This document shows positions 1-11,964 of a stretch of 11,964 nucleotides of DNA, in pieces; the first letter of the stretch is position 1, and each line of letters begins with the position of its first letter. Source of the stretch: Akkermansiaceae bacterium. GTDB lineage: Bacteria; Verrucomicrobiota; Verrucomicrobiia; Verrucomicrobiales; Akkermansiaceae. Where the stretch lies: NCBI GenBank assembly GCA_028293225.1, contig JAQGPE010000218.1, forward strand, positions 1-11,964. The letters run 5' to 3'. The notes under the pieces were generated by a model, which saw only the letters and a list, made by a program, of their open reading frames with translations, did no database searches and had not been told where the DNA came from. A program made the position numbers and the translations under genes.

Positions 1-619
1 TTAGATCGACCACCCCGCGCACTTCCTTGTGTTCATTGCGGAAGTAGTCGAAGGGAGGCACCAGCGGCGGCTCGAAGCGGCTGAAGGGCTTCAGACCGGT
101 AGTGGCGGCGGTCGAAGTAAAGATCCCCAGCGCATACTGCGGGATACTGGTGTCGCCCCACAGCCAGAAGAGCCGGTCGCCATAGCGGGCCACCTGGACG
201 GTGTCGCAGCCATGCACGCCGAAATCCACCTCCGGCACCTTGTCGCCGAGCTTCTCCGCCTCCGCGAAAACGCCCGCTCCCGTCAGACGCCCGAGCCGCT
301 TGGCGACGATGCGCCGCTCCACCTCGATCCGCAGCTTGCCGCCCGGCACCGGCTTGGCACGGACGCCTTCATAGCCGAAGCCATCCTTCGCCACCCCGTA
401 GCCCTGGCCCTTGATCCCGAACCAGACTTCGTGGTTCATCAGCTCCGGATCATCGAGCGCGATCACACCGAGATTATCGGTCACATGGCGGACATCATGG
501 GTCGTTTTCAGCTCCACCAGCGGCACCGGCCAGCCGTTCTCCTTATCCACCACCTCGATCCGGAAGGGCTGAATCGCGAGGAGGGGCAGGGGAGCCAGCC
601 AGGCCAGGAGTTTGAGCAT
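1..619 (-). CDS. Exported protein of unknown function, N-terminal part (runs off left edge)
   Basis: An open frame of 206 codons starts at the ATG at 619-617 and continues without a stop past base 1, so the C-terminus is missing. Residues 1-15 (MLKLLAWLAPLPLLA) are a short positively charged hydrophobic leader, read as a signal peptide. Residues about 19-100 look like a small beta-sandwich of the carboxypeptidase-regulatory/transthyretin type, with a TDNLG turn at 47-51. After 'AKRLGRLTGAG' (106-116) comes the start of a second domain with CDTVQVARYGDRLFWLWGDT (138-157). From memory, similar 'RL.R.TG.G...DSV...Y.G.L.WFWGDT' arrangements occur in large hypothetical secreted proteins of planctomycetes and verrucomicrobia, perhaps beta-propellers. 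I cannot assign a reaction. It is divergent from the hydrolase at 711. Only a GGGG directly before the ATG could serve as a ribosome site, so the start is fair, not certain. Confidence 0.75.
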   Translation of the reverse strand, partial: MLKLLAWLAPLPLLAIQPFRIEVVDKENGWPVPLVELKTTHDVRHVTDNLGVIALDDPELMNHEVWFGIKGQGYGVAKDGFGYEGVRAKPVPGGKLRIEVERRIVAKRLGRLTGAGVFAEAEKLGDKVPEVDFGVHGCDTVQVARYGDRLFWLWGDTSIPQYALGIFTSTAATTGLKPFSRFEPPLVPPFDYFRNEHKEVRGVVDL

Positions 620-710
620 GCCCCATCATTCGATCAGACAACCGGAATCCTTTCAAAAGCAAACGTCATCCCGCTTGACCGGCATCGTTCCGCCATCTCC
701 ATGATACGCC
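620..710. promoter_or_regulatory. Divergent intergenic region between exported protein and hydrolase
   Basis: This 91 bp stretch separates two divergently transcribed genes, so it must hold both promoters if each gene has its own. On the minus strand, TTGCTT (657-662) and TCTGAT (633-638) lie 18 bp apart and resemble a weak sigma-70 pair. The implied transcript start would leave a leader of only about 7 bases before the ATG at 619. On the plus strand, TTGACC (675-680) is a good -35 box but no properly spaced -10 follows. No operator-like repeat was seen. Weak inference only. Confidence 0.25.
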
Positions 711-1619
711 ATGAACCGGATCCTGCTGCACAACATCGCCCTCGCCACGGCCCTGCTCAGCAATTCATGCATTACCCGCCGCGCCACCGACTTTCTGACC
801 ATCCCGAACCGCGCGGTCGATGGCGCTCATTGGGAGAAGGAAGCAGGTGTGCACCCACAGCGCTTCACGGTCGTCGCCAGCGACGGCATTCAGCTTTCCT
901 GCCTCATTCTTGAGGCCAACCCCGCGGTGAAAAAACGCGGCACCGCCTATCTCTTCCACGGCCTCGGCAACAGCAAGGAGCAGATGCTGCCGACCGCGCG
1001 CCGTCTCTCCGATGCCGGCTTCCGCTGTGTGGCCTGGGACAGCCGCGGTCACGGCAAAAGCGGCGGCGTGCGGATCAGCTACGGCATCCGCGAAGTCGAC
1101 GACGCCCGCCGCGTGATCGCCGAAGGCCGCAAGCGCGACCACGGCCGCCGCGGCACGGAGGTGATCTGGGCCTACTCGATGGGCACCGCCGTCGCCCTCC
1201 AGACCCTGCCATATCTGCCGGAGGTGAAAGCCGCGGTCCTGCTCGCCCCGATCGCCGATCTCGGCGGCGTGATCCGTTACCAGGCCAGCGCGAACTACCA
1301 TGGCTCCCTGACTCCGCTGCTGCCGCTGGTACGCGCCGATATCCGCAGCACCGCCGGCTTCGATCCGAACCAAGTCCGGCCGGTCGACGCTCTGCGTCTG
1401 ACGAAGTGCAAGCTGCTGCTGGTCCACGGCGGACAGGACCGGGTGATCCCTCCCAGCCAGTCGCAGAAATTGCTCGATGCCAGCGCGCCCGGCCAGAGCC
1501 GCCGCGTTCTCATTCCCGGCTTCCTCCACCACCAGGTCATGTGGGAGCTCCCGGAAAAAACCCAGGCCGAGGCCGTGCAGTTCCTGGTCGATGAGTCGAA
1601 GCCCCGCTGGCTGCGCTGA
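711..1619 (+). CDS. Exported alpha/beta hydrolase (serine hydrolase)
   Basis: A 302-residue protein with the full alpha/beta-hydrolase fold signature. HGLGN (83-87) forms the oxyanion-hole loop, and AYSMG (154-158) is a variant nucleophile elbow (Ala for the first Gly) with Ser156 as nucleophile. GGQDRVIP (240-247) supplies the acid Asp243, and FLHH (271-274) the catalytic His273 or His274. WDSRGHGKS (109-117) is the usual strand-5 loop of lysophospholipase/esterase-like members. The first 20 residues form a hydrophobic leader ending in SNSC. This resembles a lipobox but lacks Leu at -3, so it could be a lipoprotein (Cys20) or a plain secreted protein. The substrate is unknown; an ester or acyl group is likely. 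It converges on the formylglycine-generating enzyme gene with only 7 bp between stops. No good Shine-Dalgarno precedes the ATG. Confidence 0.88.
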   Translation: MNRILLHNIALATALLSNSCITRRATDFLTIPNRAVDGAHWEKEAGVHPQRFTVVASDGIQLSCLILEANPAVKKRGTAYLFHGLGNSKEQMLPTARRLSDAGFRCVAWDSRGHGKSGGVRISYGIREVDDARRVIAEGRKRDHGRRGTEVIWAYSMGTAVALQTLPYLPEVKAAVLLAPIADLGGVIRYQASANYHGSLTPLLPLVRADIRSTAGFDPNQVRPVDALRLTKCKLLLVHGGQDRVIPPSQSQKLLDASAPGQSRRVLIPGFLHHQVMWELPEKTQAEAVQFLVDESKPRWLR

Positions 1620-1626
1620 GCGCCGG

Positions 1627-2700
1627 TCAGTCCTTCACGCAGCGGAAGCCCGCATGATTGGTCGGCGAGTCGCCGGCCTGGGACTGCCGCGCCGCCGGAC
1701 GGTAGCGCATGCAGTAGGAGGCGTGGCAGAGGAAAGAGCCGCCCTTGATGACATGGCAGATCGGACCCTGGCCTTTTTCGCCGCTGTCGGGATTCACCCA
1801 GACCTCGGGACCCTTCGGATTATTGACCGGACTTTCATAGAAATAGGCAGGATCGTAGAGGTCCGAGCAGATCTCCCAGACATTGCCGGCCATATCGTAG
1901 AGCCCGACGGTATTGGCCGGGAAACTCGCCACCGGCGCCGCACCGGTGAAACCATCCTCGCCGGTATTTTTGTTAGGGAATTCGCCCTGCCAGATGTTCG
2001 CCATCCATTTCCCGCCTGGCTGAAGTTCATCACCCCAGGCGAATAGCCGCTGGTCCAGAATGCCGCGGGCCGCATACTCCCACTCGGCTTCGGTCGGCAG
2101 CCGTTTCTTCGCCCATTTGGCATAGGCCGCCGCATCGTCGTAGGTCACGCACACCACCGGGCAGTTGCCTTTGCCTTCGATCGTTGAACCGCTTCCGCCG
2201 GGCTGGCGCCAGTTGGCGGTGGGGTCCACGATCCACCATTCCAGCACTTTGCCGGGCGCATTCGGGTCGCCCTTGATGTGGGGATTCTCCCGGAAAATGA
2301 TCGCACCATTGGCGATCCTGCCCTTCGGCAGGTCGGCGATCGCTCCCTCCGGAAGATCCCCCGGCTTGATCTCCTGTTCCGCGAAGGTGACGAAGTCCGT
2401 CGCCTTCACAAAGGCGGCAAACTGATCGTTGGTGACCTCGGTCTTGTCGATCCAGAAGCCGTTGACCTCCACCTCATGCGCGGGCTCCTCCTCGGCATAG
2501 CGTTTCGGACCGGACGTTGTCTCGATCGGCCCGCTGTGACCCATGGTGAAACGGCCGCCTTTCAGATGGATCATCCCGTCCTTCTCTTCCGGTGATGTGG
2601 CCTGGGCGGCGGCTTCCGGGGCGGCAGGGGTGACCGCCGTGGGCCCGGTCTTGTCCTTGCACCCCGCCAACAGCAGGAGAATCGGCAAAAGTCGCTTCAT
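1627..2700 (-). CDS. Formylglycine-generating enzyme (sulfatase-modifying factor), lipoprotein form
   Basis: A 357-residue protein of the FGE-sulfatase (SUMF1/EgtB/PvdO) fold. Fold markers include GGRFTMG (48-54), KRLPTEAEWEYAARG (199-213), GLYDMAGNVWE (266-276) and the ending KGGSF...GFRC (319-354). Cys325 and Cys330 in FLCHASYCMRYR match the copper-binding cysteine pair of true FGE, which turns a sulfatase active-site cysteine into formylglycine using O2; many paralogues lack this pair. Cys180 and Cys184 may form a further disulfide. The N-terminus MKRLLPILLLLAGC has a standard lipobox (LAGC, Cys14), followed by a Pro/Ala/Thr-rich linker (about 15-40). The protein is therefore predicted to be membrane-attached outside the cytoplasm. 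No sulfatase gene lies in the window, so partners must be elsewhere. A formylglycine-unrelated role remains possible. Its start is 46 bp from the divergent hisA. Confidence 0.9.
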   Translation of the reverse strand: MKRLLPILLLLAGCKDKTGPTAVTPAAPEAAAQATSPEEKDGMIHLKGGRFTMGHSGPIETTSGPKRYAEEEPAHEVEVNGFWIDKTEVTNDQFAAFVKATDFVTFAEQEIKPGDLPEGAIADLPKGRIANGAIIFRENPHIKGDPNAPGKVLEWWIVDPTANWRQPGGSGSTIEGKGNCPVVCVTYDDAAAYAKWAKKRLPTEAEWEYAARGILDQRLFAWGDELQPGGKWMANIWQGEFPNKNTGEDGFTGAAPVASFPANTVGLYDMAGNVWEICSDLYDPAYFYESPVNNPKGPEVWVNPDSGEKGQGPICHVIKGGSFLCHASYCMRYRPAARQSQAGDSPTNHAGFRCVKD

Positions 2701-2746
2701 GGTTGCTTGGCTGGCGGCACCCTAGCGGTCTACTTTCTCGCCCGCC

Positions 2747-3511
2747 ATGACGAAGTTCCGCCCCTGCATTGATCTCCACGAGGGAAAGGTGAAGCAGATC
2801 GTGGGCGGAACCCTGAGCGATCACGGCCCCGGCCCGCGGGAAAACTTCGTCTCGCCGGACGGCGCCGGAGACTTCGCGGGCCGCTTCCGCGCCGATCGCC
2901 TGACCGGCGGACACATTATCAAGCTGGGCCCCGGCAACGATGAGGCCGCAAAAGATGCGCTCGCCGCCTGGCCGGGCGGCATGCAACTCGGCGGCGGCAT
3001 CCATGCCGGAAATGCGGCCCAATGGCTCGCGGCAGGAGCCAGCCACATCATCATTACTTCTTCACTCTTTGATAGTTTCTATCATTTTTCCGATTCGAAC
3101 TTAGCATCCATCGTCGCCGCAGCCGGCTCCGACCGGATCGTCATCGACCTCTCCTGCCGCCGCACCGCCGATGGCTGGACCGTCGCAATGAACCGCTGGC
3201 AGACCCTGACCGATCTCCATATCACTCCGGCGGTGCTCGACCGCCTCGCCCCCCACTGCGCGGAATTCCTGATCCACGCCGCCGATGTCGAAGGCCTCTG
3301 CCGCGGCATCGACGGCGACCTGGTGAAGGTCCTCGGCGACTGGGGCGGCTGCCCGATCACCTACGCCGGCGGCGCCGCCTCCATGGCCGACGTCGAAAAG
3401 GTCCAGGAATTGAGCGGCGGCAAGGTCGATGTCACCGTTGGCTCCGCGCTCGATCTTTTCGGCGGCTCCGGCATCCCATACGATACCCTGGTGGCCTGGA
3501 ACCGCCGCTGA
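2747..3511 (+). CDS. hisA: Phosphoribosylformimino-5-aminoimidazole carboxamide ribotide isomerase, eukaryotic (His6) type
   Basis: A 254-residue TIM-barrel isomerase for the fourth step of histidine biosynthesis (ProFAR to PRFAR). The sequence follows the plant/fungal His6 form rather than the usual bacterial HisA: FRPCIDLHEGKVKQIVG (4-20), LTGGHIIKLG (52-61), GGMQLGGGIHAGN (77-89), IDLSCRR (133-139) and VDVTVGSALDLFGG (227-240). Asp9 and Asp134 are the expected acid/base pair; Asp180 lies in HAADVEG near the phosphate/substrate end. Length agrees with the family. No other his gene is present in the window, so it is detached from any his operon and heads a plus-strand gene run instead. A patch at residues 104-119 uses AT-rich codons unlike the rest. 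From memory, the eukaryotic-type family is described for few bacteria, so transfer or an old lineage-specific variant is possible. Confidence 0.9.
   Translation: MTKFRPCIDLHEGKVKQIVGGTLSDHGPGPRENFVSPDGAGDFAGRFRADRLTGGHIIKLGPGNDEAAKDALAAWPGGMQLGGGIHAGNAAQWLAAGASHIIITSSLFDSFYHFSDSNLASIVAAAGSDRIVIDLSCRRTADGWTVAMNRWQTLTDLHITPAVLDRLAPHCAEFLIHAADVEGLCRGIDGDLVKVLGDWGGCPITYAGGAASMADVEKVQELSGGKVDVTVGSALDLFGGSGIPYDTLVAWNRR
3070..3089 (+). other. AT-rich hairpin followed by T-run inside hisA
   Basis: TGATAG-TTT-CTATCA is a perfect 6 bp stem with a 3-base loop, followed directly by five T residues. It has the shape of a small intrinsic terminator but lies inside the coding frame (residues 108-115), and the stem is mostly A-T pairs, so it would be weak. 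It may be chance within an AT-rich codon patch. Confidence 0.3.
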
Positions 3512-3528
3512 CAACTCCCCCAACTGGC

Positions 3529-4266
3529 ATGGCGAAACCTCACGATCTGACCTACCTCCCCGCAAGCTTCGAACTGGAGCAGGAAATCCTCGACCAGCTC
3601 AGCAGCCGTCCGGGCAGCCAGCGCTGCGTGGTCGGCCGCGATGAACTCCTGCTGATCACCCAGGATGTTCCAAAATCCGGCAACCCGGAGAGGGATGCGG
3701 TCGCCTTCTGGCGTCGCCACGACGGCCTATGGGTCGACACCCAGGGCGGCCGCGGCCTGCGCCGCCTTGCGGAGCTGATCGAGCGCTTCGCCGCCGAAAT
3801 CAAAGCCATCGAGACGGCGATCGACACCGTCGCCACCGCCGCCGAAGCCTTCGGCCTGGCCCGTGCCTCCGGTCCGCTGGCCCGCGCGACCCGCAATCTC
3901 GCCGTCGCCGTCGAGCAGGCCCTCGCCCAGGACGAAGACAGCAAGGAACTTCGCGCGCTCCGCGACCGGGTCCGCGAGGTCGAGCGCGCGGCGGAAACGG
4001 TCTATCAGGACACCCGGCTGGCACTGGAATTCCGGCAGGCCGAGCGGATCGAAAAGCAGAATTCCGCCTCGGAAGGTCTCACCAAAACGGTCTTCCAGTT
4101 GAACGTGCTGGCCGGATTTTTCCTGCCGGTGATCACCCTCTGCGGCCTCTTCCTGCTCTACTTCCACAGCAAGCTGACCTTCTGGCTGGCGGGCCCCTGC
4201 GGCCTTGCCATCGGTGCCGGCGTGGTTTTCATGCTCCTGAAGAACTCGGGCAAGTCATGGAAATGA
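3529..4266 (+). CDS. CorA-like membrane protein with C-terminal two-helix domain, no GMN motif
   Basis: A 245-residue protein with a polar N-terminal part (1-80) containing strand-like segments. A long charged helical region follows (about 78-185, likely coiled coil, with LRALRDRVREVERA at 141-154). Two closely spaced membrane helices lie at the C-terminus (about 191-212 and 216-237), and the tail KNSGKSWK is basic. This order, with TVFQLNVLAGFFLPVITLCG (187-206) entering the first helix, matches the CorA/MIT magnesium-transporter plan, where the family has a Gly-Met-Asn loop between the helices. Here the loop reads LYFHSKLTF, so the pore signature is absent and Mg2+ transport should not be assumed. 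It begins 17 bp after hisA and its stop overlaps the peptidase start by ATGA, which implies translational coupling. The true function is unknown; a membrane sensor or partner of the peptidase is possible. Confidence 0.72.
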   Translation: MAKPHDLTYLPASFELEQEILDQLSSRPGSQRCVVGRDELLLITQDVPKSGNPERDAVAFWRRHDGLWVDTQGGRGLRRLAELIERFAAEIKAIETAIDTVATAAEAFGLARASGPLARATRNLAVAVEQALAQDEDSKELRALRDRVREVERAAETVYQDTRLALEFRQAERIEKQNSASEGLTKTVFQLNVLAGFFLPVITLCGLFLLYFHSKLTFWLAGPCGLAIGAGVVFMLLKNSGKSWK

Positions 4267-5066
4267 TCCGGATCGCGATTCTGCTCGGCCTGATCGCCTT
4301 GGTCGGCGGAATCCTGTTCTGGCACAGCCGCCGCGTCCGCAATCTCCGCGAACAGTTGCGGAAAAAGCGCCTCGATCCGCGGGAAACGGCCATCGTGGTG
4401 GAGCATTTCCCGCTCTGGGAGGTCATTCCGGACGAGATCCGCCGCGATGTCGAGGGCTGGATGCGCGTCTTCATCGCCGAGAAGAGCTTCGAAGCCTGCG
4501 GCGGTCTGGAAACGATTACCGAGGAAATGTTGCTCGCGATCTCCGCTCCGGCCTGCCTGCTGGTCGCCAGGCGTCCGCAGGATTTCTACGAGCGCCTGCG
4601 CAGCATCCTGATCTACCCGGACGCCTTCACCGTGCGGGAGGACGGCTATGGCGAGGATGCCCGCCTGGGCGAATCCTGGGTCACCGGCAGCGTGGTGCTT
4701 TCCTGGCAGAGCGTGAAACAGGGCGACGCCAACGTCGAAGACGGCCTGAACGTGGTCCTGCACGAGTTCGCCCATCAGCTCGATCAGGGCGATGGCGACG
4801 CCGACGGCCTGCCCGAGCTGGAGGAACCGGAGGACGTCGGCCAGTGGTCGCGGGTCTTCCGCCCCGCTTACCAGGGCTTCTGCGAGCGGGTCAATGCCGG
4901 CCGGCGCTCGGTGATCGACGATTATGGCGCGGAAAGTCCGGCCGAATTTTTCGCCGTGGTGACCGAGACATTCTTCGAACGTCCGAAAGGTCTGCGGCGC
5001 GAAGAGCCGGAAGTATACGCCGAACTGGCGCACTTTTACGGCATGGACCCGGCCTCCTGGGACTGA
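4263..5066 (+). CDS. mtfA: Membrane-anchored zinc metallopeptidase, MtfA (M90) family
   Basis: A 267-residue protein, close to the 265 residues of E. coli MtfA. HEFAHQLD (167-174) is the zinc site: His167 and His171 bind metal and Glu168 is the catalytic base. Glu228 in ESPAEFFAVVTETFF (224-238) is the likely third ligand. Other family landmarks are LDPRETAIVVEHFP (37-50) and SWVTGSVVLSWQSV (138-151). Residues 3-20 form a hydrophobic helix followed by HSRRVRNLREQLRKKR, so this version seems to be inserted in the membrane with the domain in the cytoplasm; E. coli MtfA is soluble and acts on the regulator Mlc. The start at 4263 gives an ATGA overlap with the upstream stop; an in-frame ATG at 4257 would add two residues. 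No Mlc or PTS gene is nearby, so the substrate is open. Confidence 0.87.
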   Translation: MIRIAILLGLIALVGGILFWHSRRVRNLREQLRKKRLDPRETAIVVEHFPLWEVIPDEIRRDVEGWMRVFIAEKSFEACGGLETITEEMLLAISAPACLLVARRPQDFYERLRSILIYPDAFTVREDGYGEDARLGESWVTGSVVLSWQSVKQGDANVEDGLNVVLHEFAHQLDQGDGDADGLPELEEPEDVGQWSRVFRPAYQGFCERVNAGRRSVIDDYGAESPAEFFAVVTETFFERPKGLRREEPEVYAELAHFYGMDPASWD

Positions 5067-5128
5067 GCCCCTGAACGGGCGGAAAAACCATTGGGAAAAG
5101 CGGCCGACGTGTGATTGCGTCAGGGCGC

Positions 5129-6043
5129 ATGCGCTGCTTCTACTCGCAGGACCTGGAACTGAGCCTTCCCTCCGGCCATCCCTTCCCGATGGACAAGTTC
5201 CGGATCTCGAAGGACATGCTGCTGGACGGCGGCATCCTGCGCCCGGAGGAGATCGTGGAGGTCAGGGCGGTGGACGCCCACCTGCTCGGCGCGGTCCATG
5301 ACAAGACCTACATCTCGAACATTTACTCCGGCCTGATGGACCGCAAGCAGGAGATCCGGCTCGGCCTGCCGGTCACGCCGCAGCTCTACACCCGCAGCGC
5401 TACCGAGGTCGAGGCCACCCGCATGGCTTGCCACGCCGCCCTGGCGGAGGGCGTTTCCGTCTGCCTCGCCGGTGGCACCCACCATGCTTTCCACGAGCAC
5501 GGCGAGGGCTACTGCGTTTTCAATGACGTCGCCGTCGCGATCCGGGATCTCCAGATGCGCCAGCCGGGCATCAAGGTAATGGTGGTCGATACCGACGCGC
5601 ACCAGGGCAACGGCACCGCCGCCCTGCTCGGCGACGACCCGCGCGTGTTCACCTACTCGATCCACGTCGGTAAAAATTACCCGACCCAGAAAGTGCGGAG
5701 CTCCATGGACGTCGAGACCGTCCGCTACGTCGAAGGGGATATGTATCTGAAGCAGCTCTTCAGCACCCTGGCCGGGGCGCTCGATACCTTCGCACCCGAT
5801 CTGGTCATCTGGATCGCCGGCGCCGACAACCACCGCAACGACCGCTTCGGCCAGATGCACCTTTCCGTGAAGGATCTGCAGCGCCGCGACGAGGTCCTGC
5901 TGCGGGCCTTCATCCGCAACCGCGTGCCGGTCGCCGTGCTCTATGGCGGCGGCTACAACCGCCAGGCCGAGTTCACCGCCAAGATCCACCGCAATACCGT
6001 GGCCACGGCCAAGAAGTTGGCCAGCGAGTTTCGCGGATTGTGA
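5129..6043 (+). CDS. Histone deacetylase superfamily (AcuC/class IV-like) metal-dependent deacetylase
   Basis: A 304-residue arginase-fold deacetylase that removes acyl groups from lysine or small amines. GGTHHAF (115-121) gives the His118/His119 pair, and GEGYCVFND (125-133) the following loop. VVDTDAHQGNGTA (152-164) carries zinc ligands Asp156 and His158. GADNHRNDRFGQMHLS (231-246) supplies the third ligand Asp233, and LYGGGYN (271-277) the transition-state Tyr276. All catalytic residues appear intact. The wording DAHQGNG resembles HDAC11/class IV and bacterial relatives more than class I. The ATG at 5129 is preceded by AGGG and puts the first residues at the normal family start; a GTG at 5111 would add six residues. 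It lies 62 bp after the peptidase gene and 48 bp before the reductase. The real substrate cannot be read from sequence. Confidence 0.87.
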   Translation: MRCFYSQDLELSLPSGHPFPMDKFRISKDMLLDGGILRPEEIVEVRAVDAHLLGAVHDKTYISNIYSGLMDRKQEIRLGLPVTPQLYTRSATEVEATRMACHAALAEGVSVCLAGGTHHAFHEHGEGYCVFNDVAVAIRDLQMRQPGIKVMVVDTDAHQGNGTAALLGDDPRVFTYSIHVGKNYPTQKVRSSMDVETVRYVEGDMYLKQLFSTLAGALDTFAPDLVIWIAGADNHRNDRFGQMHLSVKDLQRRDEVLLRAFIRNRVPVAVLYGGGYNRQAEFTAKIHRNTVATAKKLASEFRGL

Positions 6044-6091
6044 GGCGAGGGGAGTTGCGGCCACCGCGTCTCCCGTCGTAGGGAAGGGGGC

Positions 6092-7036
6092 GTGAGCTGG
6101 ACTTTCAAATCGGTAGCCGTCGTCGGAGCCGGCGCGGTGGGACTCTACTATGGCGCCCGCCTGGCGCGGAATGGCGAGGAGGTGAAATTCCTGCTGCGCA
6201 CCGACTTCGATGCGGTCCGGGCGAACGGCATCCAGGTCGAGAGCGTGGCCGGGGATTTCCACCTCGGCGAGGTGGCGGCTTTCAGGACTTCTGCGGAAAT
6301 CGGCCCGGTCGATCTGGTGATCGTGGCCTGGAAATCGACGTCGAATCATCTCTTCGAGTCGATCCTGCCGCCGCTGCTGCATGAGACGACCCAGATCCTC
6401 ACCCTGCAGAACGGCCTGGGAAATGGCGAGCTGCTCGCAGGCCTGTTCGGGCCGCAGCGGGTTCTCGGCGGGCTGTGCTTCGTCTGCCTCAACCGTCTCG
6501 CTTCCGGGGTGGTCAGCCATACGGCCGGCGGCCGCATCGCGGTGGGGGAATACCGCGTCGACGAGCGAGGTCGCGCCGAGGAAATCGCCCGCCGCCTTTC
6601 CGCTGCCAACATTCCCTGCGAAGCCGAGGACAATCTCGCAGCCGCCCAGTGGAAAAAGCTGATCTGGAACATCCCGTTCAATGGCCTGGCGATCGCCGAG
6701 GGCGGCGTCACCACCGACGTGCTGCTGGCAGCCGACGGCATCGAGGACGAGATCCGCGCGCTGATGACCGAAGTGGTCGCGACGGCGAATCAACTGGGCT
6801 TGAAGGTGGATTCGAAGCTGATCGAATCCAACATCGAGCGCACCCGCCCGATGGGTCCCTACCGGCCCTCCAGCATGATCGATTTCGTCGAGGGCCGTGA
6901 AGTCGAGTATGAGGCCATCTGGCAGGAGCCGCTGAGGCGCGCGCAAGCCGCTGGGGTAGCGGTGCCGCATCTGGAGAAGCTGGCGGCACGCATTCAAAAG
7001 CGGATCGCCGAGCGTGACTCGAAGATTGGCGGATAG
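6092..7036 (+). CDS. panE: 2-dehydropantoate 2-reductase (ketopantoate reductase) family
   Basis: A 314-residue protein with an N-terminal Rossmann domain: VVGAGAVGLYYGARLARNG (10-28) is the NADPH loop. LTLQNGLGN (103-111) is the second family signature. The C-terminal helical domain has AQWKKLIWNIPFN (185-197), whose Lys189 and Asn193 match the catalytic Lys and Asn of E. coli PanE. SSMIDFVEGREVEYE (260-274) holds the likely conserved acid Glu272. Known members reduce ketopantoate to pantoate for coenzyme A synthesis, but the family also includes reductases of other 2-oxo acids, and no panB or panC is nearby, so the substrate is probable rather than certain. The start is GTG at 6092, directly behind a strong GGAAGGGGG purine stretch with very short spacing; it places the Rossmann loop 11 residues in, as usual. 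Confidence 0.83.
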   Translation: MSWTFKSVAVVGAGAVGLYYGARLARNGEEVKFLLRTDFDAVRANGIQVESVAGDFHLGEVAAFRTSAEIGPVDLVIVAWKSTSNHLFESILPPLLHETTQILTLQNGLGNGELLAGLFGPQRVLGGLCFVCLNRLASGVVSHTAGGRIAVGEYRVDERGRAEEIARRLSAANIPCEAEDNLAAAQWKKLIWNIPFNGLAIAEGGVTTDVLLAADGIEDEIRALMTEVVATANQLGLKVDSKLIESNIERTRPMGPYRPSSMIDFVEGREVEYEAIWQEPLRRAQAAGVAVPHLEKLAARIQKRIAERDSKIGG

Positions 7037-7060
7037 GTCCGCACCCGCCAGGCTGCTGCG

Positions 7061-7810
7061 ATGACGGCAGCGAAAACGGGAATCGTGCTGGGCTCCGGCC
7101 TCGGCTCGCTTGCGAACCTCATTGAGGTTTATTCGGAGGTCTCTTTCGAAGAAGCCGGCCTTCATCCCTCTCTGGTCTCCGGGCATGCCGGGCGTTTCCT
7201 CGCCGGCAGGCTGGGAGAGAGGGAGGTGATCGCCATGCAGGGGCGTCTGCATCTCTACGAAGGTCACGACGCGAAGGCGGTCACTGCCGGGATCCGCTGG
7301 CTGCACCAGCAGGGCGCCGAAACGCTTATCCTCACCAACGCCGCGGGCACCCTGCACCCGGATCATCCGCCGGGCCACTGGATGATGTTGACGGACCATC
7401 TCAATCTGACCGGAACCTCACCGCTGGAGGGCGGCCCGAACTTCATCGACATGAGCGCCGTCTACGATCCGCGCCTGCGGATCAGGTTCAGCCAGCTCGC
7501 GGAGGCAGCCGGGCTGCCGCTGCACGAGGGCGTCTACGCCGCACTACGAGGCCCGCAGTACGAAACCCCCGCTGAAATCCGCATGCTGCGCACACTCGGC
7601 GCGGATGCAGTGGGAATGAGCACCGTGCTGGAAGCAATCCAGGCCCGCGCCCTCGGCATGCGGGTCGCCGCCTTTTCCTGCCTGACCAACTGGGCCGCCG
7701 GCATGAGTGGGGAATTCCTCAGCCACGACGAAGTGATCGGCACCGGCGCCGATGCCGCCCCGGGCATGACCGAGTTGCTGAAGGCCTGGTGCGCTCAGGA
7801 AACGACCTGA
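7061..7810 (+). CDS. Purine nucleoside phosphorylase, trimeric (PNP-I/MTAP superfamily) type
   Basis: A 249-residue enzyme that splits purine nucleosides with phosphate into base and (deoxy)ribose-1-phosphate in the cytoplasm. Motifs in order: GIVLGSGLGSL (7-17); GHAGRF (41-46) and GRLHLYEGH (61-69) for phosphate and ribose; TNAAGTL (92-98), where relatives usually have a second Gly; GPQYETPAEIR (164-174); VGMSTVLEA (184-192); and CLTNWAAG (207-214). Glu168 and Asn210 match the Glu/Asn pair of the guanosine/inosine-specific trimeric class, so 6-oxopurines are the expected substrates; a methylthioadenosine phosphorylase would carry Asp here. Slightly shorter than mammalian PNP at the N-terminus. 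It follows the reductase by 24 bp as the last gene of the plus-strand run, and its final 16 bases overlap the 3' end of the opposing gene. Confidence 0.9.
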   Translation: MTAAKTGIVLGSGLGSLANLIEVYSEVSFEEAGLHPSLVSGHAGRFLAGRLGEREVIAMQGRLHLYEGHDAKAVTAGIRWLHQQGAETLILTNAAGTLHPDHPPGHWMMLTDHLNLTGTSPLEGGPNFIDMSAVYDPRLRIRFSQLAEAAGLPLHEGVYAALRGPQYETPAEIRMLRTLGADAVGMSTVLEAIQARALGMRVAAFSCLTNWAAGMSGEFLSHDEVIGTGADAAPGMTELLKAWCAQETT

Positions 7811-8217
7811 GCCGTCAGCGCTCCGCTGAAGGGAGCCTTTGGCTGGAACGGCTTCACGAAGGTTTCTTCGTAGTCGAACACTCCGACGAAATCCTCTTTC
7901 CGGTCGGTGTCCTGCTTGCCGAACATCTGCTCCTCGATGAGATGAAAAACCATCTCGCCGACGTCGCCGGATTCCCGCACGCCCCACTCCTGGAGCAGGG
8001 TGGCCGCCATCGGACCGAACTCGTGCAGGGCCAGGTCGCGAAAGCCCTCGCAGAGCTCCGTGCCGCAGACATGGCGGTGCTCGCCATCGTTCGCTTCCGT
8101 GATGCGGCGCAACGTGAAATCGAGCGCGTCCTTCAGGAAGACGTACGCCTGGAAGTCATAGCGCTTGTCGCGCTTGAGGATGGCTTCGACGGCTTCCTCG
8201 AATTGTGCCCGCTGCAT
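7795..8217 (-). CDS. Minf_1886 family protein (function unknown)
   Basis: A 140-residue soluble protein without signal peptide or membrane segment. It matches, as I remember it, the small Minf_1886 family of verrucomicrobia and planctomycetes. Shared features are an N-terminal helix FEEAVEAILKRDKRYDFQAY (6-25), LDFTLRR (32-38), RHVCGTELCEGFRDLALHEFG (48-68) with His49, FGPMAATLLQEWGV (67-80), and GDVGEMVFHLIEEQMFGK (84-101). A DFVGVFDYEETF segment (109-120) follows. The periodic helices and conserved His/Cys/Glu positions suggest a compact helical domain, but no activity is known to me. It lies 45 bp downstream of the PBP pair on the same strand, so it may be co-transcribed. There is no clear Shine-Dalgarno. 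The 3' end overlaps the phosphorylase by 16 bp antisense. Confidence 0.8.
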   Translation of the reverse strand: MQRAQFEEAVEAILKRDKRYDFQAYVFLKDALDFTLRRITEANDGEHRHVCGTELCEGFRDLALHEFGPMAATLLQEWGVRESGDVGEMVFHLIEEQMFGKQDTDRKEDFVGVFDYEETFVKPFQPKAPFSGALTAQVVS

Positions 8218-8235
8218 ATGCAGGAAGGAATTACC

Positions 8236-8251
8236 CCGGCGGGGACGCCGG
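8236..8251. other. Perfect GC hairpin between PBP and Minf_1886 genes
   Basis: CCGGCG-GGGA-CGCCGG is a perfect 6 bp all-G/C stem. The loop reads GGGA (a GNRA-type tetraloop) on the plus strand and TCCC on the minus strand, which is the transcribed strand here. It sits in the 45 bp gap after the PBP stop (8263) and before the Minf_1886 start (8217). No T-run follows on the minus strand, so it is not a standard intrinsic terminator. It could protect or separate segments of a shared transcript, or be chance in GC-rich DNA. Confidence 0.35.
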
Positions 8252-8262
8252 AGTCAAAGCTG

Positions 8263-9975
8263 TTAGTCGTTGCCCAGGCGGCGGCCGAGGTCGTCCATCA
8301 CCGTGTCGAGCTGGGCCCGGGTGCTGATTTTCTGCGGCTGGTCGAAGCCGACCCAGATCGCCGTCGAGCCTTTCGGCCCCAGCCGCAGCAGCCAGGCGTC
8401 GCGGCCGGAACCGGTCGCACCGCCGTGCACCCGCGTGCCCGCGGTCGTCGTCAGCAAGGCGGCAGCCTCCCGCGCGGCGTTCTTGCCGATCGCCTGGGTG
8501 GAGATCTTTTCGCTGGTGTAAAGCACCTCGCCATCCGGCCCGGTGACCGACTCGATCAGATACGGAGCAGGCCGCGCGCCCTTGTTACCGAGGGTCGCCA
8601 ATCCGGTCGCCACCTCCATGGGCGTCGCAGCCGCCGCGCCGCGGAAAAGATCCTCCGTCGCCTGGAAAGGCCCGCCAAGCCCGCAGCGCTTCGCCAGCCG
8701 GATGGTCTCGTCCGGCCCGATCTGCCGCCCGGTCAGCACCGGCTTGCCCGGCAGTACCAGCTTGCCGCGCTCCGCCGCCGCCGCCGCGATCCATGGTTCG
8801 AACGCCGCGCCCAGATCCCGTGGCGTCCCCTGGGTCCGGTCGTAGCGGGAGTCGGCGAAATCCCGGCCGCCGATGATCGCCAGGATCGCGCCGGTTTTCG
8901 TCTCCAAGGTTACCGCCGCGCACTGCACGTAGGTCGGATTTTCGCCGTCCTTGTGATCGGCGTAAACCGGGTGATCCCAGGTTTTATCTTTCTCGATCCG
9001 CGTCAGCGACTCGGCCAGGTCGCTCTCCAGCCGGGCCTGCCAGGCGCTGTCCAGGCTGGTCTTCACCACCAGCCCGCCGTTGCGGATGTCCAGCTTGTCG
9101 AGGATGTCCCGCAGCTCCGCCCGCACCGCTTCCAGCGGATAGGTCCGCTCCACCTGGCGCTTCTCATCCGCCACCAGCACGATCGGCAACGCCTTGATCC
9201 GGGGAATGTCGGCCTCGGTGATGAAGTTCATCGTCTTCATCCGCTCCAGCACCTGCCCCTGCTGCTCGCGCGCTTTGTCCAGATGCCGGAAGGGCGAAAA
9301 GATCACCGGTCCGCGGATGATCCCGATCAGCATCGCGCACTCGCCCTCGTGCAGCTTCGAGGTCGTCTTGCCGAAATAAGTCTGCGAGGCCTCCTCGATC
9401 CCGTGGCAACCCGCGCCGAAATAGATCCGGTTCAGGTAGCCGCTCAGGATCTCGTCCTTGCTGTAGCGATGCTCGATCCGCAGCGTCAACGCGATCTCCA
9501 GTAGCTTCCGGTTGATCGACTTCGCGCGCATGTTCTCATAGCTGTTACGAGCCAGCTGCATCGTCAGCGTGGAGGCGCCTTGAGTGAACTTGCGATCGAT
9601 CACGTTGCGGACGGTCGCCCGCGCCATGCCGATCACATCGACGCCGCTGTGAGTGTAAAAGGTCTTGTCCTCGCGCGCCTGCAGCGCCTTCACCATGAAA
9701 TCCGGCAGGTCAGCCCGCGTGACCAGCCGCCCGCCACTGCCGCCGGAGCCCAGCTCCTTGTCATTGCGATCCAGGATCACCGTCCGCGACGGCAGTCGCC
9801 CCACTTCCTCGATGTCGAACTTCGCCGCCGCGTTGTAATAATAGGCCGCGACAAAGAACCCGAGCAGCAGCCCGATCCCCGTCATCCAGATCCCCACCGT
9901 CAGCACAAACCTCAGCCACGCCGGCATCCAGTTGAGCCAGCGGGGAGTGCGTGAAATCGGACGCCAGGTGGACAT
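8263..9975 (-). CDS. Class A PBP paralogue with intact glycosyltransferase (GT51) and degenerate transpeptidase domain
   Basis: A 570-residue protein with a membrane anchor at about 22-46. The GT51 domain is intact: AREDKTFYTHSGVD (100-113) with catalytic Glu102, TQGASTLTMQLARNS (131-145), and RKLLEIALTLRIEHRYSKDEI (156-176) with Glu160. YLNRIYFG (180-187) and GIIRGP (218-223) complete it. It should polymerise lipid II into glycan outside the membrane. The transpeptidase-like region (about 355-570) keeps GAILAIIGGRD (362-372), ATPMEVA (450-456) and AIWVGFD (539-545) but has lost catalysis. The SxxK site reads GAAFEP (Ala390 for Ser, Glu393 for Lys), the SxN region is missing in a segment about 42 residues shorter than in its neighbour, and KTGT reads ATGS (Ala520 for Lys). 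The start is 14 bp after the stop of the upstream paralogue, so the two are co-transcribed. It is not a pseudogene by frame: reading is open and domain shape is kept. Confidence 0.9.
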   Translation of the reverse strand: MSTWRPISRTPRWLNWMPAWLRFVLTVGIWMTGIGLLLGFFVAAYYYNAAAKFDIEEVGRLPSRTVILDRNDKELGSGGSGGRLVTRADLPDFMVKALQAREDKTFYTHSGVDVIGMARATVRNVIDRKFTQGASTLTMQLARNSYENMRAKSINRKLLEIALTLRIEHRYSKDEILSGYLNRIYFGAGCHGIEEASQTYFGKTTSKLHEGECAMLIGIIRGPVIFSPFRHLDKAREQQGQVLERMKTMNFITEADIPRIKALPIVLVADEKRQVERTYPLEAVRAELRDILDKLDIRNGGLVVKTSLDSAWQARLESDLAESLTRIEKDKTWDHPVYADHKDGENPTYVQCAAVTLETKTGAILAIIGGRDFADSRYDRTQGTPRDLGAAFEPWIAAAAAERGKLVLPGKPVLTGRQIGPDETIRLAKRCGLGGPFQATEDLFRGAAAATPMEVATGLATLGNKGARPAPYLIESVTGPDGEVLYTSEKISTQAIGKNAAREAAALLTTTAGTRVHGGATGSGRDAWLLRLGPKGSTAIWVGFDQPQKISTRAQLDTVMDDLGRRLGND

Positions 9976-9989
9976 CGGAAAAAGAAATG

Positions 9990-11964
9990 CTACTCGCCAA
10001 TTGGGATGGCCTTCAACGGCGAAGCCGCTGGTGGCGGGGAAGGGGGAGTCTCATCGGACTCATCGATGCTCTGCGCCCGCGGCGGACCGCCGCCGGCATC
10101 CTCCTGATCCACCGCCTGCGCGCGGATCGGGTGCACCGGACACAGATCGTTCTTCGCCGGCACACTGTCGCTCGGCAGTTGATCCGTGTAGGCCTGCCCG
10201 GCCGCCTCACAGGCCGGCGTCGCCCGCTTGCCCGAGGCATGGCAGAGACGGCACTCCACGAACGACAGCTTTGACTTCAGCCCCTCGGCCTTATAGCCCA
10301 GCTTGTCCGCCGTCTTCATGATCTCCGCCCACACCGGCAGCGCCAGCGTCGCCCCATAGCCGCCCTGGATCGTCCGCACCGGCTTGTCCAGACCGACCCA
10401 CACGGCGCAGGTCACCGATGAGGTGAAGCCCGCGAACCACGCGTCCTTGAAATCGTTCGTCGTGCCGGTCTTGCCCGCGCACGGCTTGGTAAAGCCCATC
10501 GTTTTTACGGCAGCCGCCGTACCCGACGTGGTCACTTCCGCCAGGATCCGGGAAATCGCCCAGGCCGACCCCGCCTTCGCGGTCGCATAGCCCAGCGGCG
10601 GCGTCTTATAGAGCACGTTGCCCTGGCGGTCGCGGATCTCGTCGATCAGATACGGCCGGTAGCGCTGCCCTTCGTTCGGGAAAATCGTATACGCCGACGC
10701 CACCTCCATCGGCGTCGCCTCCCACGCGCCCAGATACGACGAGGGCTGGTGCGGCACCTTGCCCGCGAAGCCGACATCCCGGGCCATGTCCTGAACCTTG
10801 TCCAGGCCCGCCCGGTCGCCGACCCGGATCGACATCGTGTTCCGCGAGTGAATCAGCCCATACGAAGCCGGATAGTAGCCGCCGAATTTCCCGTCGGAGT
10901 TGTGCGGATGCCAGCCCTTCGCCCCCTTGATTTCTCCGGGGTTCAGCGGCCCGTCGTCCACCATCGTGTCCGGCCGCATGCCCTCATCGAACGCCGACAG
11001 GTAAACGAACGGCTTGAAGATCGATCCCAGCTGGCGCTGCGCCTGCAGAGCCCGGTTGAACTTCGACTCATCCGCATCGCGGCCGCCGACAATCGCCAGC
11101 ACCGCGCCGGTCAGGTTCTCGATCACCACCGCGCTGCCCTGCATGTATTCCGGCGCCGCCTTCTGGTCGCCGGTCAGCTCCTTCCAGGCAGCCCGCGTCT
11201 GGTGCGCATAGCCCTGGCTCCGCTCCACCTGTCGCAGTCGCGCATCCAGCGCCTCCTCGGCTTTCTTCTGGATCAGATTGTCGATCGTCGTCGTGATCAC
11301 CAGGCCGCCAAACTCGATATTTTCCTGCTCCAGGATCCGCTCCAGATCCCGCCGCACCGCATCCATCGCATAGGTGTCGTGGGTGATGCGCCGCCATTCC
11401 GGCCGGATGCTGATGTTCTCCTTCTTCGCCTCCGCGGCCTGGGCCTCGGTGATGCTCTCCCCCTTGACCATCCGGTCCAGCGTCGTGTCGCGCTCCCGCT
11501 TCGCGCGGACCAGATCGTTGAAAGGGGAGAACGCATTCGGACCGCGGACGATCCCGGCCAGCATGGCGGACTCGGACAGATCCAGCTCCCAGGCATCCTT
11601 CTCCAGATACGTCCGCGAAGCCTCTTCGATCCCCCGGATCGAGTGACCCCAGAAAATCCGGTTCACGTAGTGGGTGATGATCTCCGACTTCGAGTAGTTG
11701 GCCTCGATCCGGTAGGACACCGCCGCCTCCAGCAGCTTGCGGTCGAGCTCCTGGAGCTTCGGGGAAAACGCCAGCAGCTTGTTGCGCAGGTCAAAGCTGT
11801 TGCGGGAAAGCTGCATCGTCAGGGTCGAGGCCCCCTGGCTCATCCCGCCGCGCTTGAAGTTCTGCACCACCGCACGCCCCACGCCATACCAGTCGACCCC
11901 GCGGTGGTCGTACAACCGCGAGTCCTCCCGCGCCAGGATCGCCGCCAGGAAGTTCGGGGAGATC
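9990..11964 (-). CDS. Class A penicillin-binding protein (PBP1A/1C-like, bifunctional), N-terminus cut by right edge
   Basis: 657 residues are visible; the frame stays open to base 11964, so the true start and membrane anchor lie outside (an in-frame TTG at 11915 is internal). The GT51 domain begins with LAREDSRLYDHRGVD, carrying the catalytic Glu, then SQGASTLTMQLSRNS. The transpeptidase is complete: GSIFKPF with Ser codon 11022-11024 and Lys codon 11013-11015, SRNT near 10838-10852, and GKTGTTND with Lys codon 10470-10472. It should both polymerise glycan and cross-link peptides, and be beta-lactam sensitive. The C-terminal tail follows a known class A tail plan (C..SG..AT..C....C..H) seen as ECRLCHASGKRATPAC and LCPVHP, with one extra Cys that makes a CxxCH. 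A Pro/Ser/Glu-rich low-complexity end follows. The downstream paralogue starts 14 bp after the TAG stop. Confidence 0.93.
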   Translation of the reverse strand, partial: ISPNFLAAILAREDSRLYDHRGVDWYGVGRAVVQNFKRGGMSQGASTLTMQLSRNSFDLRNKLLAFSPKLQELDRKLLEAAVSYRIEANYSKSEIITHYVNRIFWGHSIRGIEEASRTYLEKDAWELDLSESAMLAGIVRGPNAFSPFNDLVRAKRERDTTLDRMVKGESITEAQAAEAKKENISIRPEWRRITHDTYAMDAVRRDLERILEQENIEFGGLVITTTIDNLIQKKAEEALDARLRQVERSQGYAHQTRAAWKELTGDQKAAPEYMQGSAVVIENLTGAVLAIVGGRDADESKFNRALQAQRQLGSIFKPFVYLSAFDEGMRPDTMVDDGPLNPGEIKGAKGWHPHNSDGKFGGYYPASYGLIHSRNTMSIRVGDRAGLDKVQDMARDVGFAGKVPHQPSSYLGAWEATPMEVASAYTIFPNEGQRYRPYLIDEIRDRQGNVLYKTPPLGYATAKAGSAWAISRILAEVTTSGTAAAVKTMGFTKPCAGKTGTTNDFKDAWFAGFTSSVTCAVWVGLDKPVRTIQGGYGATLALPVWAEIMKTADKLGYKAEGLKSKLSFVECRLCHASGKRATPACEAAGQAYTDQLPSDSVPAKNDLCPVHPIRAQAVDQEDAGGGPPRAQSIDESDETPPSPPPAASPLKAIPIGE

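Follow-up and report, generated by a model that had tools for sequence, protein, structure and literature searches.

A class A penicillin-binding protein family of the Akkermansiaceae that kept its transpeptidase domain after losing the catalytic motifs

The DNA analyzed here is an 11,964-nucleotide stretch from an Akkermansiaceae bacterium (assembly GCA_028293225.1, contig JAQGPE010000218.1, positions 1 to 11,964), referred to below as the window, and the subject is a gene on its minus strand (8263..9975) encoding a class A penicillin-binding protein (PBP) whose transpeptidase (TP) domain is catalytically dead, hereafter the dead-TP protein. The reading frame is clean, as the initial annotation had stated, running uninterrupted from ATG through stop for 570 residues, and the product was assigned from the open-reading frame, domain profiles and an alignment to its neighbor. 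From the N-terminus, it comprises a helix in the AlphaFold2 model that is a putative membrane anchor (residues 19-51; 9823..9921, minus strand), a GT51 glycosyltransferase (GT) domain (residues 83-247; 9235..9729, minus strand; PF00912, 185.8 bits) and the dead TP domain with its linker (residues 278-570; 8266..9144, minus strand). Directly upstream in transcription, 14 bases away and on the same strand, the open-reading frame list and domain profiles place an active class A PBP paralogue (9990..11963) with the motifs SIFK, SRN and KTGTT; its N-terminus is missing where the contig ends.

Alignment of the two proteins places the SIFK of the neighbor opposite AAFE in the dead-TP protein (8797..8808, minus strand; Ala390 at 8806-8808 and Glu393 at 8797-8799) and its KTG opposite ATG (8410..8418, minus strand; Ala520 at 8416-8418), the same substituted codons that the initial annotation had given. 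That annotation had also put the loss of sequence at about 42 residues including SxN, and the alignment returned exactly 42, a 3-residue gap between residues 405 and 406 and a further 39 residues, SRN within them, missing at the Pro412/Val413 junction (8739..8740, minus strand). The transpeptidase profile PF00905 scores 23.1 bits on the dead-TP protein, barely above its cut-off of 22.1, and 112.1 bits on the neighbor. The dead-TP protein falls below the cut-off of TIGR02074 (PBP_1a_fam; 322.4 bits against 508.75), as does the truncated neighbor at 491.3. The AlphaFold2 prediction retains the PBP transpeptidase fold (predicted local distance difference test score 89.8).

The protein shares with class A PBPs of the PBP1A/PBP1b type (GT51 plus PF00905) the domain order, the N-terminal anchor helix, GT51 and the predicted TP fold, and differs from them in having lost the lysines of SxxK and KTG together with the entire SxN segment; on its sequence, it is expected to carry out no crosslinking and to bind no penicillin. 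Fold and GT domain make it a class A PBP, and none of the motifs tested marks it as a transpeptidase. Like the monofunctional glycosyltransferases MtgA and MGT, it is expected to be a glycan polymerase only; unlike them, it keeps a TP-like domain of ~290 residues, and it misses the cut-off of the corresponding profile TIGR02070 (102.3 bits against 182.65).

A whole-protein search gave 2567 matches, the best 120 of which were taken and, after exclusion of the window's own entries (P0001, P0002), left 119 aligned close homologues of 529-574 amino acids. The SxxK lysine is missing in all 119, replaced by Glu in 107, Ser in 5, Thr in 4, Ala in 2 and Ile in 1, and the KTG lysine is likewise missing in 119/119 (Ala in 103), with the T kept in 119 and the G in 117. 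At the position of the SxxK serine, Ser is found in 65, Ala in 33 and Thr in 17, indicating that AxxE is how the site reads in the window's own group and that the serine is often still present among close homologues. The claim that the changes are conserved across genera therefore stands for the loss of both lysines and of SxN and only in part for the exact letters (A of AxxE in 33/119, E in 107/119, A of ATG in 103/119). A scan of named genomes, restricted to the best 80 of 161 loci (titled Luteolibacter, Haloferula, Akkermansiaceae, Verrucomicrobiaceae and similar), again showed no SxxK lysine in 80/80, with Glu in 79 and Thr in 1, a Glu count that is selected since these loci were fetched with peptide patterns containing FEP; the 119-homologue set and the genome searches are free of that bias. 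KTG was read at the catalytic strand in 0 of the 79 named loci that reach it (L132 ends earlier). With an Akkermansia-type protein as query, the best 120 proteins, some of them fragments and named Akkermansia sp. or generically, lacked the SxxK lysine in 119 cases, the exception being P0158, and most of those listed had no TG in the cleft motif. One Akkermansia dead-TP protein, P0131, is listed as an 861-amino-acid fusion with an inositol-monophosphatase domain (PF00459), a single member.

Across 40 dead-TP proteins from 13 genera, Lys occurs in 0/40 at SxxK and in 0/40 at KTG, and the SxN columns are all gaps in 40/40, whereas the S, K, S, N, K, T and G of the three motifs are all present in 36/36 active paralogues. 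KTG strings in some dead-TP members fall elsewhere, outside the catalytic column. The SxxK serine is replaced by Pro or Asp in 20/40, across genera. All 40 frames are 540-671 residues long, and the domain has shrunk no further than one shared deletion.

The initial typing and tree used 82 GT51 proteins from stretches of 19 genomes, the window and two further contigs of its genome, with type labels assigned by pattern, by which L180 and L181 were mislabelled A1; these two were omitted from the later trees and from the 36 active rows. In a later tree of 81 rows with more genera, the 40 dead-TP proteins form one clade with a support of 100 in the Shimodaira-Hasegawa-like approximate likelihood ratio test (SH-aLRT), on which a single change suffices, and the GT columns alone, which carry none of the lesions, give the same split (SH-aLRT 99); the trees were quick ones with SH-aLRT as their only support measure. 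One clade makes a single loss of TP chemistry the simplest reading. The sister group of the clade is the active PBP1A type of the order, a placement that an old duplication or a long branch could explain. P0158, a 760-amino-acid protein with SLFK, SRN and KTG that grouped with the Akkermansia type in an early tree, was considered as an active relative inside the clade and rejected. It matches the dead-TP protein of L037 without a mismatch over residues 60-180 (60/60, 60/60) and, just as exactly, the active PBP of L172 over residues 240-760 (60/60 per full block), and its source is one contig of 4,973 bases; it is a chimera of two Akkermansia genes, arising from natural recombination or as an assembly artefact, and was excluded from later trees. 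As the sole apparent case, its removal leaves no close relative with intact SxxK and KTG.

For the 12 closest pairs, the ratio of nonsynonymous to synonymous substitution rates (dN/dS) over the dead TP domain was 0.016-0.216, and 15 close Akkermansia pairs gave 0-0.108, well below 1 as had been anticipated. Two of 14 pairs gave 0.70 and 0.85 for the TP domain and 0.54 and 0.83 for the GT domain, at dN of 0.20-0.32, where the dS of the method is unreliable. By these ratios, the dead TP domain is still under purifying selection. Taken together with the tree, the sequences indicate that a branch of Akkermansiaceae class A PBPs retained the domain after a single loss of its TP chemistry in a common ancestor.

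A profile (A3, 58 members) was run on 117 genomes from 16 genera of the window's family at an author-set cut of 1e-129, where full-length matches yield to ones ending near position 400, which are active paralogues, and 103 of the genomes, in 12 of the 16 genera, carried the dead-TP protein above that cut. An order-wide run on 288 genomes at a cut of 1e-128 was passed by 126, comprising 121 of 129 within the family, taken as Akkermansiaceae from the titles of the named loci, and 5 of 159 outside it. Among these five, G055 is a true member, with the motif RDLGGAFSP, and lies at the contig end of an incomplete metagenome-assembled genome (MAG). G233 was rejected as it carries STVK, SRN and KTG, that is, an active PBP, and G011, G031 and G258 (family f2) exceed the score cut only via matches on profile positions 11/15-397. 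At G055:C500/L052 and L132, the dead-TP gene ends a contig in a MAG of family f3, which points to transfer or contamination. Nine MAG records titled Akkermansia muciniphila (L057, L089, L098, L106, L110, L114, L121, L124, L127) contain the Luteolibacter/Haloferula-type protein and lack the Akkermansia type, and their titles look wrong.

The tandem arrangement seen in the window recurs in 33 of the 80 named loci, which have an active class A PBP upstream on the same strand, within 391 bp in 31 and at 1,486 and 2,585 bp in the other two; 11 loci were too short for the count. In 20 further loci from other genera, whose choice was partly guided by visible neighbors, 13 show the tandem within 280 bp, the exceptions being the 7 loci of genus g40. 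A different neighborhood is found in Akkermansia, where the dead-TP gene follows genes for ExbB, ExbD and a tetratricopeptide repeat (TPR) protein of ~810 amino acids in 9/9 loci (L036-L044), with Pfam support for ExbB and ExbD of one locus and for the TPR proteins of two. These genes were not found at the 80 named loci or in the G088 stretches examined, and in G091 such a set lies ~4.7 kb upstream, its TPR gene being the weaker of two copies. The Akkermansia TPR protein has relatives in 15/15 other genomes, with the best match elsewhere in the genome, so the ExbB-ExbD-TPR link may be peculiar to Akkermansia. CpoB of E. coli is also a TPR protein. In that species, CpoB and Tol act on PBP1B, with CpoB linking the Tol system to it (PMC4458516), and the Akkermansia gene order, ExbB/ExbD-like and TPR genes followed by the dead-TP gene, resembles that system. 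The likeness is one of gene order, and in other genera the best match of the TPR protein lies elsewhere in the genome; by analogy, it is a weak lead for a PBP1B-like coupling. Elsewhere in the window, an open-reading frame at 5120-7399 (minus strand, 759 amino acids) and further long antisense frames face plausible genes and are probably due to chance.

A second type of class A PBP, also with SxxK broken, was present in 20/20 genomes typed (19 plus the window's own), spanning five families of the order. Like the dead-TP protein, it combines GT51 with a TP domain that has no SxxK lysine; it differs in forming a separate clade, in its length of ~700-900 residues, in having an SK-type second motif and in mostly keeping KTG. 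At the first SxxK position, 20 of the 22 proteins have Thr and 2 have Ser, and 21 are without the Lys (mostly TxxL/F/I), L212 being the exception with TAFK; KTG is retained in most. The copy in the window's genome, L219 (3070-5643, plus strand, contig C754), has TAFF and KTGTT, and the others are L166, L168, L171, L173, L175, L179-L181, L184, L186, L189, L192, L193, L195, L197, L200, L205, L207, L212, L214 and L215, of which L180 and L214 have long branches in the tree and could be of another kind.

An ancient inactivation after which the domain has stayed folded and under selection suggests that it now serves structure or partnering instead of chemistry, and the initial annotation's reading of the kept domain as structural or regulatory is supported. 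We give a probability of roughly 0.55 to the reading that the dead-TP protein is a beta-lactam-blind glycan polymerase whose dead TP domain acts as a module for structure or docking, probably for the active paralogue; GT activity, membrane anchoring, beta-lactam blindness and partnering are all inferred. The protein would be anchored in the inner membrane and its GT51 domain would polymerize lipid II, with the dead TP domain escaping acylation by beta-lactams and acting as a rigid docking module that keeps the GT domain in a synthase complex. The partner would most likely be the active paralogue encoded beside it, which would then crosslink the strand; the ExbB-ExbD-TPR machinery, whose genes lie immediately upstream in Akkermansia, may be the partner there instead or in addition.

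Several observations weigh against this reading. In 36 of the 69 assessable named loci, no active class A PBP lies upstream within the available stretch, so the tandem is not obligatory, and 14 of the 117 family genomes, several of them small or incomplete, fall under the profile cut, so that some members can do without the gene. The TP domain is also less constrained than its counterparts, with dN of ~0.06 in Akkermansia pairs compared to ~0.01 for the GT domain, a mean top frequency of 0.48 across the dead clade compared to 0.64 in active paralogues, and 17/201 columns conserved at ≥90% compared to 51/201. This weaker conservation and higher dN is as expected if only the scaffold matters. 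The GT51 motifs, previously called intact, include the first catalytic Glu, present in 40/40 dead-TP relatives, and the description is slightly too strong for the second, which we take to be E290 of E. coli PBP1b and whose place is occupied by Ala151 in the window protein. A simple pattern reads Glu there in 7/40 dead-TP proteins and 7/36 active paralogues (1 and 4 unreadable), so the site does not separate the two groups.

The leading alternative, to which we give considerably less than even odds, is that the domain is ballast needed for folding or stability of the GT domain, with no docking or sensing, and that the enzyme is effectively a monofunctional glycosyltransferase. The TP residues conserved at ≥90% are mostly fold residues (Gly, Pro, Trp) and the active-site columns vary freely among subclades, as such a role would predict, but TP dN/dS in close pairs of the window's group is about as low as that of the GT domain and none of the 40 proteins has shrunk past the shared deletion. 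MtgA and S. aureus MGT are active monofunctional enzymes without any TP-like domain, which argues that a GT domain can do without this ballast. It is unlikely that the domain is instead a sensor that controls the GT domain through binding of stem peptides or muropeptides in its cleft; the altered cleft is conserved in the Luteolibacter/Haloferula group (Glu for Lys in 107/119, T in 119/119, G in 117/119), but its motif varies by subclade, TG is gone in most of the Akkermansia-type proteins listed, and the SxN side is deleted in 40/40. A changed chemistry, with Ser and the Glu in place of Lys forming a different acyl enzyme, would fit the 65/119 close homologues that retain Ser, mostly with that Glu, and is very improbable given Ala at that position in 33/119, the window included, Pro or Asp in 20/40 across genera, and no active-site residue common to the whole clade. 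Recent decay, assembly error or a pseudogene in one strain might be suspected from the incomplete assembly of the window's genome (completeness 61.84, 820 contigs) and is refuted by the same lesions in open frames across 13 genera and by purifying selection.

More tentatively, and with the odds against it, Akkermansiaceae may possess two-part class A synthases in which a dead-TP glycan-polymerizing subunit is bound to an active paralogue, the second broken-SxxK type being another possible GT-only enzyme, so that polymerization and crosslinking would be split and polymerization would be partly beta-lactam-blind. In the Akkermansia genome G015, SxxK, SxN and KTG are intact in just one of three GT51 proteins.

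Class A PBPs are generally regarded as bifunctional enzymes that are by definition penicillin targets, and counts of their genes are taken as crosslinking capacity. A literature search, mostly without subscription journals and preprints, found no paper describing class A PBPs in which a dead TP domain is conserved across a family, and the available passages of PMC12283558 and PMC8406291 mention none. A TP-dead class A PBP kept through the divergence of at least 12 Akkermansiaceae genera, including the gut microbe Akkermansia, offers a natural test of a long-standing question, the part that the TP domain plays in glycan synthesis apart from its chemistry. In these genomes, match counts for PF00912 and PF00905 overstate the number of transpeptidases. 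Some glycan polymerization in these bacteria may also go on under beta-lactams, a behavior known so far, to our knowledge, from mutants and monofunctional enzymes.
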